From Methanomicrobiales archaeon (GTDB taxonomy: Archaea > Halobacteriota > Methanomicrobia > Methanomicrobiales > Methanospirillaceae): a DNA stretch of 64,000 bases. Positions 8,067-28,377 of the stretch are shown one piece after another. The first letter of the stretch is position 1. Each line of letters opens with the position of its first letter. The notes beneath the pieces are model-generated. The model was given only the letters and a program-made list of their open reading frames with translations. It had not been told where the DNA came from and made no database searches. The stretch is taken from positions 1 to 64,000 of the forward strand of contig JANYKQ010000033.1 of NCBI GenBank assembly GCA_025358115.1, written 5' to 3'. The translations under genes and the position numbers were made by a program.

Positions 8067-9464
8067 TCACACGAACGAAAACGTCTCAGGGATCAGTGTC
8101 TGCAAGTCCACGACAACCGCAAGCGCCGGTGTCGGGTTCACGTTCATCTGGTGCTGGAACTTGGTCTGGGATTGCCAGGTACCGGCATTGATGCCAAGAA
8201 CCCCCCGGTAGGTCGTGATGCCTTTGATGTGGACATGGCCGGTATGCAGGATCTCAGGCAGCGGATCGATGATCATCCGGTCGATCTTTCCCGCAGCAAT
8301 CGGGGTCCTGCGTCCATAAGCAGGTGCAAGGTGACGGCGTTGGAGCATCTCCTGCATCATGAGCCCGCTCTGCTCGTAGGATGCCCCGGGGATCAACCCG
8401 ATCATATCATCGATCGATCGACCATGGTACATCAGGACCCGCACGCCCTGGAGATTGACCAGTGCCGGGTTCTCGACAAGCACAACGTTCTCCGGGAAAT
8501 TCCTCGTGAATGCTTCGGGTAAGACCGGCTGGGGTTCTGCGCCCCGGACCACGTCGTGGTTGCCCGGCGATACTATGATCTTCATCCGCGAGGGAAGGTC
8601 GCGCATCATGGCACCGAAGGCTTCGTACTGCTGGTAGATGTTTTTTATGGTCAGTTCGTTTTCATGTCCGGGAAAAATACCGATACCATCCACAAGGTCA
8701 CCGGCAATCAACAGGTAGGAGAAATCCGAGTCCGCGAGCCAGTCGGAAAAGCGGTGCCAGCTGTCCGCTAAAAAGGTATCACTGCCCACGTGGACATCGG
8801 AGATGAAGACCGCTTTTCCCGGAGTCTCGCTCCTGAACGGGGTGTTGTCGATCCGGATATCCGGGCGGTAGAGGAGCTCGGCAAAGAAGAGTTTCCCGTC
8901 GCTGGAGAGCTTCCCCTTAACCCCGATGACCTCGTCGTGGATGATCCGCTCGGCATCGGAGAAGGCCGGGCGATCCTTCCGGAAGAGCACGGGAATATTT
9001 GCCGTGGTATCTTCGAGCTCGGCGATCCGGTGCCCGTTTGTGGTGGTCTTGACTTCCGTGACCATGCCGATGATGGTGCACTCTTCCTGCCGGTACCGGT
9101 TGGAACGGGTGAGTGCCTCGATGGGCATGGTGCTGCACCGGCTCCGGATCATTCCCCCGAGCCGGGTGTACCGATCGCGGAAGTAGAAGAGGTAATCCCC
9201 GGTACCGTTTATGGGCCCGGAGGTGCCGGCAGAGCCGCTGACCACCTCAACGCTGGGATCCGTGAGAAACCGGGTCCCGTCACGGGTTACGGTCATGCCG
9301 GGGATGTGCTGTGCCGAGACCACGATCGCATGATCTGGTACTCCGGCGATGATGCGCTCGATCAGGCCGGGTTCACCCAGCTCCAGGATATACCGGACTA
9401 CATCGGGATGTACCTGCAGTCGCGCATCTAAAAAGGCGAGAGTGATCTGCTGGACATCGAGCAT
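8067..9464 (-). CDS. polB: DNA polymerase D (PolII) small subunit DP1
   Basis: This 465-residue protein is the exonuclease subunit of the archaeal family D replicative polymerase. An OB-fold region lies near residues 125-200. The calcineurin-like phosphoesterase motifs follow in order: S-D-V-H at 222-225, G-D-L-V-D-G at 255-260, P-G-N-H-D at 300-304, Y-H-G at 346-348 and T-G-H-V-H at 408-412, so the Mre11-like 3'-5' nuclease site looks active. I chose the ATG at 9464 because a TATA box lies 22-32 bases upstream, fitting a leaderless transcript; a GTG at 9482 is an in-frame alternative. The open frame runs further upstream but without family sequence. Confidence 0.93.
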   Translation of the reverse strand: MLDVQQITLAFLDARLQVHPDVVRYILELGEPGLIERIIAGVPDHAIVVSAQHIPGMTVTRDGTRFLTDPSVEVVSGSAGTSGPINGTGDYLFYFRDRYTRLGGMIRSRCSTMPIEALTRSNRYRQEECTIIGMVTEVKTTTNGHRIAELEDTTANIPVLFRKDRPAFSDAERIIHDEVIGVKGKLSSDGKLFFAELLYRPDIRIDNTPFRSETPGKAVFISDVHVGSDTFLADSWHRFSDWLADSDFSYLLIAGDLVDGIGIFPGHENELTIKNIYQQYEAFGAMMRDLPSRMKIIVSPGNHDVVRGAEPQPVLPEAFTRNFPENVVLVENPALVNLQGVRVLMYHGRSIDDMIGLIPGASYEQSGLMMQEMLQRRHLAPAYGRRTPIAAGKIDRMIIDPLPEILHTGHVHIKGITTYRGVLGINAGTWQSQTKFQHQMNVNPTPALAVVVDLQTLIPETFSFV

Positions 9465-19610: not shown

Positions 19611-21245
19611 TCACAGGAACGTGAGCGGGTGGAGTTCGGGAACCGGCTCCGTGCGGGATTTTATCCGCTTGATCAGGGCCAGTTCGGCCTTTAACCCCAG
19701 CTCCCTGCTGAACCGCTCGGCATGATCGAGCTTGTCAGCGGTGACCGCGTACTTATCCGGGAACGCCTCGGGCGAGGTATGGTACAGGAGCGCCTCAGCG
19801 ATGAACGTCTGGACGATCCCCCACCGGGAAGAGATCTGGCAGTAGATCTCGAATGCATTTGCAAATTTCGTATCCATATCCCTGGGAAGCGGTGTGTTGC
19901 ATTTCAGAAGAGCTACCCGGGCGAGCTCGCACTCCCCGATAAGGCCATGGGCAAACCAGCTGATGTTCCGGATTCTCTGGGAAGTTGCCTTCGCCTCATC
20001 ATATGTTGCGGAGGCAGCAGCAACGTACCCGGCAGCCACCTTCCCCTCCGAACAAAAAGCCCGGGCCCGCAGAAGTTCAGCCTGCTCGGGCAGCAGCCGG
20101 AGAAGGCCACGGAACGTTCCGTTACGGCAGGTGCACTCAGATTCCGCATAACAGGTTTCGGCTTCATCCAGTCGCCCGAAGATCCGGTGGACTGTTCCGG
20201 TCCTCCGCAGGATATTCCCCCGGAGATCCTGCACATCCGCGTCTTCCTGTTTCGGGTCTGCAATCCCGCAAAGTGCCAGTGCCTGGGCAAATCGTGCCGG
20301 GGCATATTGCGTGGTGAGATCACCGCAGTACAGTTCTGCTTCACCGGCCCCAAAGAGGTTCTTTGCCTGGAGAGAAGGGCTGCTCCCTTTGTCCCGGCTC
20401 ACTTCGAAGAAGGCCTCTTTTGCCCCGGGAAAGTCATTGAGATGGAGCAGGATATGACCTTTGGAGATCCGGGCGTCTGCAAGAATGGCGGGGAGATCCA
20501 GCCCAACCTGCCCGGCCCGGTCAACTCCCTGCATAAATGCATCGTATGCCTCCTGGTACCGGTCGAGAATATGGAAGAGTTCTGAATACCAGAAGAAGAA
20601 CCGGACCTCCCGCTCCTCATCTGGAGCAGTGGCTACGAACCGGAGGAAATCCCGGGCTATGAGGCTGTCGATGTCGCTCTCCGGTACCTTCCCCTCGTAG
20701 ATGTCTTCGTAGATGCCCTCGAGGTAATCCCCGATTGCTGTCTTGTTGCCGAGTAGCTTCTGGAACACCGCATAGGCTGCTTCTGTCTGGTGACTTCGTT
20801 CCGTCCGTTCTCCGGTCGCAGAGAGATACCGTGGGTGGGGGAGGGCTGCATCCCCTTCAGCTGCCATGTGCGAGAGCTGGTGGAGGAGAATGGTGAGATC
20901 GAGAAGCCCGCTGGATGGACCCTCCCGGCATTTGATGAGAATATACTGGTTGAATATCCACGGGCGGCGGATGTAATAATACGGGTTTGTCCGTTCGCTG
21001 CCAGCCCGGGCAATTATACCCCGGGCGATCAGCACATCCAGCCGTTTCTGGAGGGCGGACTCTGAGATATTCTGGTCCTTTGCCCCCTCATCGGTTGCCG
21101 GGTGATCCGATCTATTGATGATATCCAGGATCTGCCGGAGATGGAGTGGCCCGTCATACAGGGCGAGCAGGGTCTCCCTGCCGGCACCTGAGAGGTTCAG
21201 CTCGTCTTTTACCATTCGCTGGAACATTGCCCGGTCTGGATACAT
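19611..21245 (-). CDS. Winged-helix transcription regulator with TPR-like repeats
   Basis: A protein of about 544 residues. The first 90 residues look like a winged helix with a long helix-turn-helix (A-L-Q-K-R-L-D-V-L-I-A-R-G-I-I-A-R-A-G). The remaining part is helical and rich in tetratricopeptide-like A-x-x-x-Y/F pairs (for instance residues 215-345 and 350-520). Such proteins act as signal-sensing regulators; no ligand is evident. TTTTTATAG at 21272-21281 is its TATA box; ATG 21245 is preferred, with GTG 21254 in frame. It is divergent from the STAS-GNAT-ATP-grasp-MFS operon, and is the obvious candidate regulator. Confidence 0.7.
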   Translation of the reverse strand: MYPDRAMFQRMVKDELNLSGAGRETLLALYDGPLHLRQILDIINRSDHPATDEGAKDQNISESALQKRLDVLIARGIIARAGSERTNPYYYIRRPWIFNQYILIKCREGPSSGLLDLTILLHQLSHMAAEGDAALPHPRYLSATGERTERSHQTEAAYAVFQKLLGNKTAIGDYLEGIYEDIYEGKVPESDIDSLIARDFLRFVATAPDEEREVRFFFWYSELFHILDRYQEAYDAFMQGVDRAGQVGLDLPAILADARISKGHILLHLNDFPGAKEAFFEVSRDKGSSPSLQAKNLFGAGEAELYCGDLTTQYAPARFAQALALCGIADPKQEDADVQDLRGNILRRTGTVHRIFGRLDEAETCYAESECTCRNGTFRGLLRLLPEQAELLRARAFCSEGKVAAGYVAAASATYDEAKATSQRIRNISWFAHGLIGECELARVALLKCNTPLPRDMDTKFANAFEIYCQISSRWGIVQTFIAEALLYHTSPEAFPDKYAVTADKLDHAERFSRELGLKAELALIKRIKSRTEPVPELHPLTFL

Positions 21246-21321
21246 GGTATACACTAATAGGTCAGGCAGGATCTATAAAAACCCCGACACCCCATACCCG
21301 TTGCTCTGTCAGTTGAGTCTG

Positions 21322-21390
21322 GCGTTATGTGGAAAAATACCCCGTCTTTTTTTCCAAACTCCCCCCCTTTTTATGACCCTGATTGAAACA
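21322..21390 (+). promoter_or_regulatory. Upstream element A, shared with 25727
   Basis: The sequence TGGAAAAA, then 12-14 bases, TTTTTTCCAA, a C-rich block and a TTTTTAT or TTCTTAT box recurs at 25727-25790 in near-identical order. The inverted TGGAAAAA/TTTTTCCA arms look like an operator directly upstream of the TATA-like box (21367-21375). Here it precedes the STAS operon. A leaderless 21-codon frame (21394-21459) follows and ends exactly where an in-frame ATG of the STAS frame (21460) begins; I cannot tell whether it is translated. Confidence 0.55.
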
Positions 21391-21558: not shown

Positions 21559-21897
21559 ATGGAAATTCACCAGAGCACATCACAGGGTGTGACAATAATG
21601 GCCCTGATCGGCAGGCTGGATACAAACAGCACTTCGGCATTTGAAGAGAATTGCACGACGTGGATGGCCAGATCGATCATTCTTGACATGAGCAGACTCG
21701 AATATATCAGCAGTTCCGGTCTCCGTGTATTACTCCAGATGAAAAGGGATTGTGCAAATAAGAACATCCCGATTGTCATTGCCGGGAGCTATGGGAGTGT
21801 CGACAGGGTCATCAGGGTGAGCGGGTTTGAAAATATCTTCCCGCGGTACCCATCAGTGGAGGACGCACTTCAGGCAGTTGCGGCGGGGAGTGCATGA
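21559..21897 (+). CDS. STAS-domain protein (anti-sigma factor antagonist family)
   Basis: A 112-residue STAS protein of SpoIIAA type. The phosphorylation-loop motif L-D-M-S-R-L-E-Y-I-S-S-S-G-L-R is intact (about residues 39-53), so a phospho-regulated switch serine is available. Archaea lack bacterial sigma factors, so a partner-switch role in signalling is an inference. Start at 21559 is supported by ACGGAGG eight bases before; an in-frame ATG at 21460 would add 33 residues. Its stop overlaps the ATG of the GNAT gene by four bases, pointing to coupled translation. Confidence 0.85.
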   Translation: MEIHQSTSQGVTIMALIGRLDTNSTSAFEENCTTWMARSIILDMSRLEYISSSGLRVLLQMKRDCANKNIPIVIAGSYGSVDRVIRVSGFENIFPRYPSVEDALQAVAAGSA

Positions 21898-23030
21898 TCA
21901 TGGCGAGCGTGCAGCAGGATACCCCCGGGATATCAGAAAATTTCCGGGCTATGACGGCAGATATGGCCCCCCCGGGTCATACTCCGGCATGCGGACCGGC
22001 ATCGTACAATGCCCTTCCTGCCATAGACATCCATTGCTTACGGCCGGAAGAAGCAGAAGGGGTTGCACTGCTGATGCATGAAGTGTACCGGGATACCTAT
22101 CCCAAGAAATATGTGTATGATCCGGAACAGATCCGCAAGAAAAACGCGATGGGAGAGATAGTCCCGGTCGTAGCGACCAGCCCGGAAGGAAGGGTGCTTG
22201 CGTACGGTGCGATGAATCCCGTTAACGCATATCCCGAGATCGGTCTGCTGGGTTCCCTTGCAGTATTGCCGGATTTTCGCAGACATGGCCTTGGGGAATT
22301 GGTACTCCGGCATCTGTTGAGCTGCAGTGAAGGCAGAGGATTCCGGAGTCTCACGGGTGGTGCATTTACCGTGCACACCCACTCCCAGAAGATACTCCAG
22401 AGATATGGATTTCACACAAGTGCCATCATGCTCGGTTCGCAGCCGCAGGAGATATCGTTCCAGGGAATCTCAGAAAACCTGTGCCAGCGGGAGAGCATGG
22501 CGTTTCTCACCAAAGTACTCCCCCATGAAGAGTACGGGCTCCAGTACCTCCCCAACAACCACCACGGGATTATACAGGAGATAGCCACGGAACTCGGGTT
22601 CCGGATAATTCCTGGCAGTGGGGGAAGGTACGGAGATGAGCCGACTGTTACCGAACTCTCAATAAATTCCGAAACCGGAGCCGGAATGGTATTGATCCAA
22701 AGAGTCGGCCCCGATCACCGGGAGATCCTCGCAGGGATAGTCAGGCAACTCCATACGAAGGATGCAAAGAGTATCAGGCTGCACCTTTCACTGAGTGATC
22801 CGGGATCACCAGCACTTGCATCCGCAGCAGAAGAGATGGGATTTATTTTCTCGGGAATTCTCCCGGCAAAAGACGGGATTATCCTTCTTCTCCAGAACCT
22901 GCATGGAGTTCCCATAGATTATGAACGGATCCACATGGGCAATCCCTTTGGAGAACGGTTGCTCTCTTACATACGGTCCCAAAACCCGATTGAAGAGACC
23001 GGTGCCCGTCAGATGATTCAGAATAACTGA
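21894..23030 (+). CDS. GNAT acetyltransferase with a second GNAT-like domain
   Basis: A 378-residue protein. Residues 40-190 form a GNAT fold with L-G-S-L-A-V-L-P-D-F-R-R-H-G-L-G-E-L-V as the acetyl-CoA loop (about 116-135). Residues 190-378 resemble the tail seen in bacterial proteins where a GNAT pair is fused to an RsbW-type ATPase (E-M-G-F-I-F-S-G-I-L-P near 317). The ATPase part is missing here, but a STAS protein is encoded immediately upstream, so the system looks like a split relative of those fusions. Substrate could be a small amine, an amino acid or a peptide end. Confidence 0.75.
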   Translation: MIMASVQQDTPGISENFRAMTADMAPPGHTPACGPASYNALPAIDIHCLRPEEAEGVALLMHEVYRDTYPKKYVYDPEQIRKKNAMGEIVPVVATSPEGRVLAYGAMNPVNAYPEIGLLGSLAVLPDFRRHGLGELVLRHLLSCSEGRGFRSLTGGAFTVHTHSQKILQRYGFHTSAIMLGSQPQEISFQGISENLCQRESMAFLTKVLPHEEYGLQYLPNNHHGIIQEIATELGFRIIPGSGGRYGDEPTVTELSINSETGAGMVLIQRVGPDHREILAGIVRQLHTKDAKSIRLHLSLSDPGSPALASAAEEMGFIFSGILPAKDGIILLLQNLHGVPIDYERIHMGNPFGERLLSYIRSQNPIEETGARQMIQNN

Positions 23031-23044
23031 AAGGAGGTATAATT

Positions 23045-24349
23045 ATGACACAAATAAAAAAGGCTCAGAAAGTAGTAGTAATCGTGAATGGATTATCTTC
23101 AGGAATTTTTCTGGCACCAAGGTTTCAGGCCCGGGGAATTGCCTGTATCCACCTTCTGAGCCATGCGATCTTTCCCGAAGGGATCAAATCAATGAAGACA
23201 GCAGATCTGAACAACACAGATTCCCATTACCTGGAGTCCCTGGTTTTTGAAGGGGATTACGATGCAATCATCAACACTCTTAAGAAGTATACCGTTATCG
23301 GCGTCATCCCCGGTATGGAGCTCGCTGTACCGCTTGCTGATGCCCTGAGTGAGCGGATGGGCCTTCCGACAAACGGTTCCCGTGGCTCACCGGCACGGCG
23401 AAACAAATACCTGATGCAGTGCGCCCTCCGAAACGCCGGCCTGCCCACGAAGCGGTTCCTCTGCACAAACAGCGAAGAAGAAGTGATCAAATGGGCCCGT
23501 TCAGAAGGGATAAACGAAGTCGTCATAAAACCGATGAACAGCGCCGCAACAGACGGGGTGAGGTTCTGTACTTCCGATGACGAGATCCGGGAGGCATTCA
23601 GGGCACTCATCGGCCAGGAGAACCGTATCGGTGAGATGAACACGGAGGTTCTTGCAGAAGAACGCCTGATCGGAACGGAATTCGGGGTGAACACTGTCTC
23701 ATGGGATGGTAAACACCGGCTTGCCGAAGTCTGGGAGTACAGTAAAATCAGGGTTGAAGGTGCAGGAAACGTGTATGACTGCACCCGGCTGCATGACTGG
23801 CCGGATGCGAAGCTGATGCCCCTCATCAGGTATGCTTTCGGTGTCATCGACGCATTGGGAATCCGTTATGGAGCAGCCCATACCGAGATCATACTTACGG
23901 AGAGGGGGCCGCTTCTTGTCGAATCGGGCGCCCGGGTCATGGGGGGGAAGATTCCTCCGGAACTCATCATGCAGTGCGCCGGCCAGTGCCAGGTCGATCT
24001 TATGGCCTATGCGTACGTGGACCCGGAGGGATTCCTTGAGCAGGTCGATACTGCCTACAATCTCCGTTGCCACATCATCCGGAAGCATCTCATTGCCGGA
24101 TGTGAAGGAGTTCCTGAAGGGGAGATCTTTGCGATCGATAAACTTGCAGAGCTCCCGAGCTGTGTCAAGGGGGATTTTGTTCACCTGATCAGTGACTGGT
24201 ATGTTCACCGGACCGTGGACATGCTCTCCAGCCCGGCAACGGTCTTCCTCCTCCACGAGGACCCGGAGATCATACTGAATGATTACCATACCATCCGTGA
24301 CTTTGAGATAAACCACGAAAAAGAACTTTTCAGTGTGGGAATTACTTAA
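23045..24349 (+). CDS. ATP-grasp ligase (amino acid ligase-like)
   Basis: A 434-residue ATP-grasp enzyme. An N-terminal Rossmann-like domain (V-V-V-I-V-N-G-L-S-S-G) precedes K-Y-L-M-Q-C-A-L-R-N-A-G-L-P-T near 123-137, V-V-I-K-P-M-N-S-A-A-T-D-G-V near 161-174 and the metal-binding H-T-E-I-I-L-T-E-R-G-P-L-L-V-E-S-G-A-R near 277-295. This layout matches BacD-type L-amino acid ligases and relatives that join carboxyl groups to amines. AAGGAGGT at 23031-23038 is one of the strongest ribosome sites in the window. It sits between the acetyltransferase and an exporter, which suggests a secreted conjugate. Confidence 0.82.
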   Translation: MTQIKKAQKVVVIVNGLSSGIFLAPRFQARGIACIHLLSHAIFPEGIKSMKTADLNNTDSHYLESLVFEGDYDAIINTLKKYTVIGVIPGMELAVPLADALSERMGLPTNGSRGSPARRNKYLMQCALRNAGLPTKRFLCTNSEEEVIKWARSEGINEVVIKPMNSAATDGVRFCTSDDEIREAFRALIGQENRIGEMNTEVLAEERLIGTEFGVNTVSWDGKHRLAEVWEYSKIRVEGAGNVYDCTRLHDWPDAKLMPLIRYAFGVIDALGIRYGAAHTEIILTERGPLLVESGARVMGGKIPPELIMQCAGQCQVDLMAYAYVDPEGFLEQVDTAYNLRCHIIRKHLIAGCEGVPEGEIFAIDKLAELPSCVKGDFVHLISDWYVHRTVDMLSSPATVFLLHEDPEIILNDYHTIRDFEINHEKELFSVGIT

Positions 24350-24382
24350 AAAAAAACCAACAATACCTGAGCCTGATTAACC

Positions 24383-25627
24383 ATGACAACAGCAGAAGGG
24401 GGCAGACCAGCGGATGCTGTACTGGACCCGGTGAAAAAAAAAGGAATCATCCTGATCCTCTATTTCGCGGCATTCGCAACGATGCTCGGGATAGGGACCA
24501 TAGCCCCGGCCCTCCCGCTCTATGCCCACCTTATGGGAGCCTCAGGTTTCTGGATCGGGATCATCTTCTCATCCTTTTCCCTGTCCCGGACTCTCTTCCT
24601 CCCAATATTTGGGAAACTATCAGATCAGCATGGCCGGAGAATGCTCCTGCTTATAGGTCTATCCGGCTATGCAATCTTCTCAGCACTGTATGTGATGGCA
24701 GATTCGGTTTTTACCCTCTCCCTGTTCCGGTTCCTCCACGGTATGGCTGCGTCAATGGTCTTCCCGGTCGCGGTCGCCTATGTGGCGGACATTGCTACGG
24801 TTGGTGAGGAAGGACAACTGATGGGTGGGTTCAACAGCGCTGCGTTCCTCGGTATGAGTTTTGGTCCCCTGCTCAGCGGTGTACTGATGGATTACATCGG
24901 GATCTCCTCGGCGTTCCTTGCACTTGCCCTGATCTCAATTATAACTGCAGGGGTCTGCCTGGTATCGCTCCCCGATTACCGCATACGGCCCCGTCAGCCA
25001 ACTCCCCTTCTGGAAGTCTTCCGGCACCCGGCGCTCCGTATCCCGATATTCTTCTACCTCGTGTATTCGGTTGCCTACGTGACGTTTCTCATCTACCTGC
25101 CGATCATCACCCGGACCATGGGACAGTTTACCGGAACCGAGATCGGAGCCCTGCTTTTTGTCGGGACTGTGACTATGGCCTGCGTCCAGAAAATATCCGG
25201 CAGGATTGCAGACACCTTAAACAAATATCTCCTCCTTGCAGCCGGGATATCGGTTATCGCCGTGTCCTGCATTCTTATCGCGTTTGCGGGTAGCTTCTTC
25301 GAATATCTCGGTGCGGTGGTTCTCCTCGGATTCGGTTTTGGGATATCATTGACAACGGTTTCGGCGCTTGTTGCAATAGCCGGGCGTGAGACCGGACAAG
25401 GTAGTGCAGCAGGAGTGGTCAACATGGCCCAGGGTATCGGCTTCATCATTGTTCCAGCAATCTTTGGTATCGTGATGGACTATTCGGGTGTAAGGAACGT
25501 TTTCATCATCACCGCAGTTGTAGCTCTCGCAGCGGCACCATTCCTTCTCTCCGCGGGAAGGAATGCGCTGTCTCCTCTGCCCCAAAATACCACGGTGCCC
25601 ACGGTAAATAAGCGGCCCCAGGCTTAG
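24383..25627 (+). CDS. MFS exporter
   Basis: A 414-residue major facilitator with 12 predicted spans. The loop 2-3 motif G-K-L-S-D-Q-H-G-R-R near residues 77-86 is the classical MFS signature, and the proline- and glycine-rich helix 5 (G-M-S-F-G-P-L-L-S-G-V) near 156-166 is typical of drug/proton exporters. It ends the STAS-GNAT-ATP-grasp operon, 33 bases after the ligase, and most likely exports the product of that operon. Confidence 0.85.
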   Translation: MTTAEGGRPADAVLDPVKKKGIILILYFAAFATMLGIGTIAPALPLYAHLMGASGFWIGIIFSSFSLSRTLFLPIFGKLSDQHGRRMLLLIGLSGYAIFSALYVMADSVFTLSLFRFLHGMAASMVFPVAVAYVADIATVGEEGQLMGGFNSAAFLGMSFGPLLSGVLMDYIGISSAFLALALISIITAGVCLVSLPDYRIRPRQPTPLLEVFRHPALRIPIFFYLVYSVAYVTFLIYLPIITRTMGQFTGTEIGALLFVGTVTMACVQKISGRIADTLNKYLLLAAGISVIAVSCILIAFAGSFFEYLGAVVLLGFGFGISLTTVSALVAIAGRETGQGSAAGVVNMAQGIGFIIVPAIFGIVMDYSGVRNVFIITAVVALAAAPFLLSAGRNALSPLPQNTTVPTVNKRPQA

Positions 25628-25726: not shown

Positions 25727-25790
25727 GTTGGAAAAAATCCGCCCTGTTTTTTCCAACATCCCGCCCTTCTTATCCAACCTGGATCAACCT
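25727..25790 (+). promoter_or_regulatory. Upstream element B, near-copy of element A
   Basis: TTGGAAAAAA, 12 bases later TTTTTTCCAA, a C-rich block (CATCCCGCCC) and CTTCTTATCC follow the same order as element A at 21322. The shared box lies about 60 bases before the ATG of the 58-codon ORF at 25831, which fits promoter and operator of that unit. Two occurrences in one locus suggest joint control. Confidence 0.55.
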
Positions 25791-25830
25791 ACTGATCAGG
25801 CCCGGGACCCCCGGGCAGGATAGAGTAACC

Positions 25831-26007
25831 ATGACCCCACGAAAGTCAAGCCAGGGATTTGAGACCGATGAGGAGTTTTACTTTACCTCTCTCGGAGGTC
25901 ATGGCAGGGACCCGTCCCTGTTCTCCCTCTGGCAACAGTTCAACGCGACCCCCCTCCCGTCGCTGAGAGCAATGACAAAAAGACCTCTGAAGAGAACAAC
26001 TGAATGA
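25831..26007 (+). CDS. 58-residue ORF, putative small peptide
   Basis: The frame encodes M-T-P-R-K-S-S-Q-G-F-E-T-D-E-E-F, then Y-F-T-S-L-G-G-H-G-R-D-P-S-L-F-S-L-W-Q-Q-F, ending P-L-K-R-T-T-E: an acidic N-terminal third, a Gly-Gly centre (residues 22-23) followed by an aromatic core, and a basic tail. It has its own upstream element (25727), a coupled second frame and a downstream hairpin. There is no clear Shine-Dalgarno before the ATG, so a short-leader mRNA is possible. Alternatives: a decayed start of a methyltransferase gene (weak resemblance to the N-terminus of the protein at 26343) or a non-coding RNA. Confidence 0.4.
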   Translation: MTPRKSSQGFETDEEFYFTSLGGHGRDPSLFSLWQQFNATPLPSLRAMTKRPLKRTTE

Positions 26008-26078
26008 AACCATCATACATCTCCATCACCTCAAACTCCATGCAATGCCAGCAGGGAAAAACCAAAGAAATCCGATAA
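26004..26078 (+). CDS. 24-residue ORF overlapping the 58-residue ORF
   Basis: This frame starts at an ATGA overlap with the stop of the preceding 58-codon ORF and ends at TAA one base before a strong hairpin. It would encode a Ser-rich peptide with a single cysteine (M-K-P-S-Y-I-S-I-T-S-N-S-M-Q-C, ending K-T-K-E-I-R). Exact ATGA coupling and the stop immediately before the hairpin suggest design rather than chance, but the frame is too short for statistical support. Confidence 0.25.
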   Translation: MKPSYISITSNSMQCQQGKTKEIR

Positions 26079-26106
26079 GGGCGAATCCCTCACAGGGTTT
26101 TCGCCC
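26079..26106 (+). terminator. Hairpin terminator after the small-ORF unit
   Basis: GGGCGAATCCCT and AGGGTTTTCGCCC form a stem of about 11 pairs with one bulged base and a CAC loop, followed by a T-rich stretch (26109-26125). The remaining sequence up to the methyltransferase start at 26343 shows no convincing gene; an 81-codon frame there has no recognisable character. Confidence 0.55.
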
Positions 26107-26342: not shown

Positions 26343-27089
26343 ATGACACTCGATCAGTTTTTTTACCAGGTGTTCGAGTCCCTTCCACGGCAGGGACCCG
26401 GGTGTGAGGGTGCGACAAGGAAAGTGTTTTCCTATCTTCCTCCCCTCTCAAAGGACGCGAAGATCCTTGATGTCGGGTGCGGTTCAGGAACCCAGACCCG
26501 GGACCTGGCAGCGCTCACCAGCGGCACCATCACAGCAGTAGATAATCACCAGCCGTTTCTGGATTCCGTAAATGCCTGGGTCGTAAAGACAGGTCTTGAA
26601 GGGAGGATCCAGACTCATTGCGCTTCGATGGATGCACTGCCCTTCAAACCTGGGCAGTTCGATCTGATCTGGTCTGAAGGAGCCATTTTCATCATGGGTT
26701 TTGAGGAGGGACTCCGTGCATGGAAACCCCTGATGAAGAAAGGCGGGTACATGGTCGTCTCCGATGCGGCATGGTTTGAACCCAATCCTCCTGAGGAACT
26801 GGTCCAGTGGTGGGAGAAGGAGGGGGGCATTCCCAAAACAGAGGATCAGCTCAGGGAAAAGGTCAGGAACGCAGGTCTACGTTCCATTGCCACATACCGG
26901 CTGCCTGAAGCCGGCTGGTGGGATAATTATTATGTCCCGATGCTGGCCCGGATTTCAGATATGAGGAAAACGCATGGATCTGATCCAGCCTGTGTTGCCA
27001 TCCTCGACACTCTTGAACACGAGGTGGAGATGTATCAGAAGTACAAGCGGTATTACGGGTACACGTTCTTTGTGATGCAGAACGGGTGA
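26343..27089 (+). CDS. Class I SAM-dependent methyltransferase
   Basis: A 248-residue small-molecule methyltransferase. Motif I is I-L-D-V-G-C-G-S-G-T-Q-T near residues 41-52, A-V-D-N-H-Q-P-F is the acidic loop at about 65-72, and D-L-I-W-S-E-G-A-I-F-I-M-G-F is motif IV near 103-116. The N-terminal L-P-R-Q-G-P-G and the later W-W-E-x-E-G region recall archaeal proteins named only as methyltransferases. It is same-strand downstream of the small-ORF unit and could modify a product of that locus; this is inference. Confidence 0.82.
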   Translation: MTLDQFFYQVFESLPRQGPGCEGATRKVFSYLPPLSKDAKILDVGCGSGTQTRDLAALTSGTITAVDNHQPFLDSVNAWVVKTGLEGRIQTHCASMDALPFKPGQFDLIWSEGAIFIMGFEEGLRAWKPLMKKGGYMVVSDAAWFEPNPPEELVQWWEKEGGIPKTEDQLREKVRNAGLRSIATYRLPEAGWWDNYYVPMLARISDMRKTHGSDPACVAILDTLEHEVEMYQKYKRYYGYTFFVMQNG

Positions 27090-28059: not shown

Positions 28060-28377
28060 TCAGCCATTTCCATAAGCGCACGGGTCACGGTCGCAATCAC
28101 AGTTATCCACACCCGGGTTCTGACAATCTATTCCTGTGCCCGGACACTGAGCGCAAAATTTCCACCCATATTTCTCATGATACCGCATTGACACATCCAT
28201 TTCCTCCAAAACACATTTCTGGTAATCGCATACCCGGTTTGTCGGGCTGTGAAGAGCCTTCTGGTCCGGCTGGACGACCGCGAAATAATACACACCGGCA
28301 ACAATACTTCCAACAACCGACAGGCAGATCATGAAGAGTACGAGCCGGGCAAGCGGGGTTTGTAGTGAACCTGTCAT
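28060..28377 (-). CDS. Membrane-anchored Cys-rich small protein, unknown
   Basis: A 105-residue protein with one N-terminal membrane span (about residues 11-33) and an outside region with eight cysteines: V-C-D-Y-Q-K-C, F-C-A-Q-C-P-G-T-G-I-D-C-Q, and D-N-C-D-C-D-R-D-P-C near the end. The spacing suggests a disulfide- or metal-stabilised surface module. I do not recognise the family. It ends next to the purE scrap and is followed on the same strand by no other gene. Confidence 0.6.
   Translation of the reverse strand: MTGSLQTPLARLVLFMICLSVVGSIVAGVYYFAVVQPDQKALHSPTNRVCDYQKCVLEEMDVSMRYHEKYGWKFCAQCPGTGIDCQNPGVDNCDCDRDPCAYGNG

Follow-up and report, generated by a model that had tools for sequence, protein, structure and literature searches.

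Two short open reading frames, ORF1 and ORF2, lie behind a promoter-like element in a 64,000-nucleotide stretch of archaeal DNA (the window), next to genes for an ATP-grasp ligase, an acetyltransferase, an exporter and a methyltransferase (Table 1). This raises the question of whether such a unit encodes the precursor of a modified peptide, as a preliminary description proposed, or whether it serves another purpose. Our comparison of 39 genomes of Methanoregula, a methanogen of wetlands and digesters, and of 232 Methanomicrobiales genomes corrects the tempting reading of the locus as a peptide-antibiotic cluster. Because ORF1 has its promoter in common with genes for small, exported and for the most part Cys-rich proteins and, within the order searched, is found only together with the divergent regulator Reg547, it has the appearance of a regulatory-circuit component rather than of starting material for a peptide antibiotic.

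Table 1. Features of the locus and their positions in the window
Feature	Position	Strand	Remark
Reg547, winged-helix and TPR regulator, divergent from the cassette	19611-21254	-	
Element A, inverted repeat of the element B type	21330-21356	+	flanked by Reg547 and the STAS operon
Optional cassette: STAS protein, GNAT acetyltransferase, ATP-grasp ligase (PRK07206/DdaF-like), MFS exporter	21559-25627	+	
Element B, inverted repeat TTGGAAAAAATCCGCCCTGTTTTTTCCAA	25728-25756	+	probable Reg547 operator
Element B, C-rich block (BRE-like) and TATA-like box CATCCCGCCCTTCTTATCC	25757-25775	+	spacing conserved in 14 units
Predicted transcript start GATCAG and 5' leader hairpin GCCCGGG-ACC-CCCGGGC	25794-25816	+	every unit except that of G015
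ORF1, 58 codons (58 aa), SLxxLW motif (residues 29-34), no signal peptide	25831-26007	+	
ORF2, 24 codons, probably not protein-coding	26004-26078	+	unconserved past codon 5
15-nt conserved nucleotide element ATGAAACCATCATAC, the start of ORF2	26004-26018	+	4% synonymous codon differences versus 42% in ORF1
Terminator-like hairpin GGGCGAA..TTCGCCC, then T-rich stretch	26079-26106	+	-18.9 kcal/mol, z -3.1
Class I methyltransferase	26343-27089	+	usual downstream neighbour, not unit-specific

The outline of the unit given earlier holds. A 58-codon and a 24-codon frame are coupled by an ATGA overlap, and the second stops at 26078, one base before a strong hairpin whose stem begins at 26079; the reading as a short, terminated unit is supported, and the hairpin has counterparts in G014, G006 and G012. 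Judged by its conserved frame and by an excess of synonymous over nonsynonymous change, ORF1 is a real protein-coding peptide gene. Homologues were initially seen in G014, G006, G012, G028 and G015; profile and inspection brought the number to 14 of the 39 Methanoregula genomes, and all 14 have intact frames of 47-71 codons with a common start. The dN/dS ratio is 0.09-0.51 in nine of ten pairs, the exception being G030/G033 (1.2, with 5 changes). Residues L30, L33 and W34 are invariant, and identical residues are encoded by differing codons in 42% of comparisons. Conservation and Ka/Ks among relatives, the check suggested for this frame, thus bear out a conserved peptide. ORF1 matches no entry in Pfam, NCBIfam or PADLOC, and its best hit among PDB sequences has an E value of 0.69. 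It combines a conserved middle motif with a variable, Pro-containing C-terminus and has no conserved core residues; its structure model (pLDDT 61) contains a single helix (residues 30-39) over the motif and is disordered elsewhere. By hydropathy, a hydrophobic N-terminus or export signal is absent from the 13 units scored, where the maximum 15-residue mean is 0.13-1.22 versus 2.1-3.0 in secreted members of the regulon in the window's own genome.

As a gene, ORF2 did not withstand comparison. The tails after its opening MKPSY range in length from 10 to over 50 codons and are unrelated beyond the first five codons except among the closest relatives; the frame is broken in G006, the ATG is lost in G017 and G020, and the ORF1 stop falls before, on or past the ORF2 ATG, depending on the unit. 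Conservation is at the nucleotide level only: ATGAAACCATCATAC recurs in 11 of the 12 units retaining the ATG, G060 having ATGAGACCGTCATAC, and it does so irrespective of the ORF1 frame. Since codons 2-5 show 11/253 synonymous differences, versus 42% in ORF1, the constraint is on the nucleotides. ORF2 is probably not a functional protein, and its first 15 nt would act as an RNA or DNA signal. The sole common fold of this element is a 4-bp hairpin, and no consistent conserved long-range pairing was found for it.

Element B had been described as repeating element A, with a C-rich block and a TATA-like box in the same order, and all of these features were found. In element B the C-rich block spans 25757-25766 and the TATA-like box 25767-25775; in element A the repeat is followed by CCCCCCC and then TTTTTATG, with repeat and TATA as in B but without the leader hairpin. 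Aligned locally, A and B score 25, a value reached by none of 2000 dinucleotide shuffles (maximum 19), and TGGAAAA-N8-14-TTTTCCA has two sites in the window, A and B only, versus none in 100 shuffles. From 14 aligned upstream regions we obtained a composite in which TTGGAAA-N-TTTCCAA is followed by a C-rich block and TATA and then, after about 25 nt, by GATCAGGCCCGG..CCGGGCAGGAG and the start codon; with this layout the predicted transcription start comes to lie at the foot of a hairpin that precedes the ribosome-binding site. The composite is present in every unit and, with the exception of one incomplete genome, is restricted to Reg547-positive genomes. On this sequence evidence, elements A and B are a single promoter type made up of the TTGGAAA-N-TTTCCAA inverted repeat, the C-rich block and TATA, and the proposed joint control with the ATP-grasp operon finds support in the shared inverted repeat.

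The consistent partner of ORF1, as judged from its distribution, is Reg547, which is present in 17 of the 39 Methanoregula and 19 of the 232 Methanomicrobiales genomes. ORF1 occurs in 14/17 Reg547-positive versus 0/22 negative Methanoregula genomes. Across the order, where matches with E below 1e-17 were taken as credible and three others (E 0.001-0.005) were set aside because a stop codon interrupts each of them, the counts are 15/19 and 0/213 (Fisher p 3e-20, uncorrected for shared ancestry); the co-occurrence may partly reflect shared descent. The sole match outside the genus, in G194, is not counted as independent because its contig (L215/L176) is almost identical to that of G012 (L083), the two MAGs belonging to two genera; this contig may be mis-binned. 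Three Reg547-positive Methanoregula genomes are without ORF1 of class 1 (the ORF1 units): G010 has another peptide of 49 aa, and G061 and G008 have promoter and hairpin without an ORF. A covariance model of element B plus the leader hairpin detects all 17 Reg547-positive Methanoregula genomes and one of the 22 negative ones at E<=1e-4; at this threshold the promoter model finds 19 of the 232 genomes, namely 18 of the 19 with Reg547 and G032, which is negative and 77% complete. G209 has no promoter sites, and its sole Reg547 relative is a distant one (30% identity). By tblastn synteny, the stable gene order is Reg547 (minus strand), ORF1 unit, methyltransferase, a QueG-like protein and purE. 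In the minimal loci of G060, G062 and G015, Reg547 and ORF1 point away from each other on either side of the repeat; in G060 and G062, both cassette and gap are absent. Reg547 and the ORF1 unit are unlinked in G024; in G015 (L085), Reg547 is in two frames and is missing residues about 217-444, while ORF1 and promoter are intact.

The AlphaFold model of Reg547 (mean pLDDT 71) has a winged-helix-like N-terminus, consisting of helices and two strands, and a helical TPR solenoid at residues 191-530. TPR Pfam families match 13 of 14 Reg547 homologues; the N-terminal domain has weak sequence matches to LrpA and the ArsR family only. The top Foldseek fold matches in the PDB are peptide-binding TPR domains (LGN), and the best 50 include Rap, RapH, NprR and kinesin light chain. 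These TPR matches are generic, at 10-15% identity and TM 0.2-0.44 over the query, and the modelled fold fits a peptide ligand without proving one.

Eight further promoter sites were read in the window's own genome. Seven of them precede 79-131-aa proteins that carry an N-terminal hydrophobic segment and contain 5-10 Cys, and the eighth lies upstream of an open frame resembling a LysE-type exporter of G006. In relatives, the promoter stands before further secreted proteins, before a beta-lactamase-fold protein and a B12-binding-domain protein in G006, and before a chagasin-family (I42) inhibitor with a signal peptide in G014 (L081, about 8663-9310); the regulon has members beyond the small exported proteins. 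A second class behind the same promoter and hairpin consists of 49-aa cytosolic peptides with the motif NGFEALPxxEKxWFLIRVQSL, which are scattered in the genomes of G062, G017, G020, G024, G010 and G032 (L150, L151, L158, L160, L146, L162, L153), with no constant neighbour seen. Profile comparison does not support these peptides as ORF1 homologues. A literature search found no description of this regulon.

Considering the shared promoter, the coding constraint on ORF1, the co-occurrence and the divergent minimal layout, which the genome comparison establishes, we tentatively propose that the ORF1 unit belongs to the Reg547 regulon as a small-peptide gene, its product being a putative cytosolic peptide that feeds back on Reg547; we hold this to be quite possible rather than probable. 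In this mechanism, Reg547 would bind the inverted repeat and thereby control its own neighbour and the regulon, mainly small exported proteins. It would probably act as an activator, because the repeat is directly upstream of BRE/TATA, a placement that suits an activator at archaeal promoters. ORF1, mostly disordered, with its SLxxLW helix and no export signal, would remain in the cytosol and bind a partner. The most likely partner would be the TPR groove of Reg547, with feedback on regulon output; this is the least certain step.

Alternatively, ORF1 may be a cytosolic effector or accessory protein, such as an immunity protein or a chaperone for the exported proteins, with no action on Reg547. 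This is unlikely in our view, though it deserves serious weight: the promoter common to ORF1 and the exported proteins, the missing export signal and the single ORF1 copy per genome beside many secreted-protein genes would all fit; however, no other regulon gene follows the presence and position of Reg547 as consistently as ORF1 does, and the strong conservation of a single motif in ORF1 points to one fixed partner, whereas the secreted proteins are diverse.

The leader hairpin, which the preliminary description overlooked, brings in another reading. It occupies 25800-25816 (z -3.2) and precedes the AGGA before ORF1. In several other regulon members its stem is altered in sequence yet still paired, and 31 of 65 leaders of such members outperform 95% of their shuffles (in a simple script that leaves the register free); within class 1, no compensatory change or covariation was found, and the support for pairing thus comes from the other members of the regulon. 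The unit could then be mainly a regulatory or dual-function RNA, in which 5' hairpin, 15-nt element and terminator form a small RNA that incidentally carries ORF1. The retention of the hairpin with changed stems across the regulon points this way, as do the nucleotide-level conservation of the 15-nt element and the loci of G061 and G008, which keep promoter and hairpin without ORF1. Yet we find this doubtful: the hairpin is also upstream of protein genes of the regulon and is therefore a leader feature, ORF1 is constrained at the protein level, the conserved fold is a 4-bp hairpin at most, and an Rfam search matched the unit to no known RNA family.

Is the neighbouring ligase nevertheless a sign of peptide modification? 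Only some genomes have the cassette inserted between Reg547 and the ORF1 unit; it is complete in six genomes (G000, G014, G028, G030, G033 and G013), has a truncated or diverged ligase in G017 and G020, and is absent elsewhere. ORF1, with or without ORF2, was taken for the precursor of a ribosomal modified peptide, processed by the ATP-grasp, GNAT and methyltransferase enzymes and exported by the MFS protein. In its favour, the genes are linked in six genomes behind promoters of one type, ATP-grasp is limited to ORF1-positive genomes, and the conserved helix and variable Pro-containing C-terminus could be leader and core. The distribution of the enzymes speaks against it: the ATP-grasp gene is found in 8 of the 39 genomes, all ORF1-positive, versus 14 for ORF1, and because five of the six ORF1-positive genomes without it are near-complete (G060, G062, G015, G006 and G024), the link between ORF1 and the ligase is incidental. 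The methyltransferase is present in 29/39 genomes, of which 16 are ORF1-negative, and is missing from ORF1-positive G015; the co-occurrence with a modifying enzyme that marks a RiPP precursor is not observed. Moreover, there is no conserved core, ORF2 is unconserved, and the ligase resembles the dapdiamide synthase DdaF, which joins free amino acids. We thus consider a precursor role improbable, and its strict form, ORF1 as an obligate ATP-grasp substrate, is ruled out by co-occurrence. The PRK07206/DdaF ligases (NF005543, NF041595) resemble the locus in the optional cassette ligase and exporter, and ORF1 is phylogenetically independent of them. That the unit is a leader or attenuator for the methyltransferase downstream of most units is very unlikely and was rejected on the distribution of that gene, which occurs in 16 genomes without the unit and not in G015, is separated from the unit by the hairpin and T-rich end and, in G014, has a separate I42-inhibitor unit in between. 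The methyltransferase itself matches PADLOC mad2 over the methyltransferase domain only, and this match is probably generic.

To our knowledge, peptide-TPR signalling is documented in Firmicutes and their phages, not in archaea, and a literature search found no archaeal case. If ORF1 does feed back on Reg547, the two would be laid out to work like the RRNPP systems, with peptide binding putative; a separately evolved functional counterpart of these bacterial systems is conceivable, although we think it rather unlikely. RRNPP(A) receptors have a TPR domain and an optional N-terminal DNA-binding domain (PMC12700828). The likeness to this family (Rap, NprR, PlcR, Rgg, PrgX and AimR, from Gram-positive bacteria and phages) lies in the TPR receptor with an adjoining small peptide gene: the modelled Reg547 has the core TPR solenoid, and its Foldseek matches include Rap and NprR, though the TPR match is generic. 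Reg547 differs in being archaeal and in having a winged helix instead of the bacterial-type N-terminal HTH; the ancestral RRNPP(A) form has an adjacent propeptide with a secretion signal, and ORF1 is adjacent but without such a signal. In Methanosarcina mazei, translated sORFs of <=70 aa were detected by Ribo-seq (PMC11456600). They are likewise short methanogen sORFs; ORF1 differs in its assigned promoter class and candidate regulator, and no homology is established.

Regulator, compact promoter and short peptide gene define a Methanoregula regulon whose uncharacterised small exported proteins can now be listed, with a direct route to testing their function and inducers. Small proteins that combine an N-terminal hydrophobic segment with a variable C-terminus rich in Cys form a family behind the same promoter on G000 contigs C77, C20, C16, C80, C72 and C46 (L134-L140). 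The window holds a LARLVLFMICLSxxG Cys-rich member at 28060-28377 (minus strand), without the inverted repeat upstream, and several of the G000 proteins have LARLVLFMICLSIAGxxVAGVHYxAVDLP in common.
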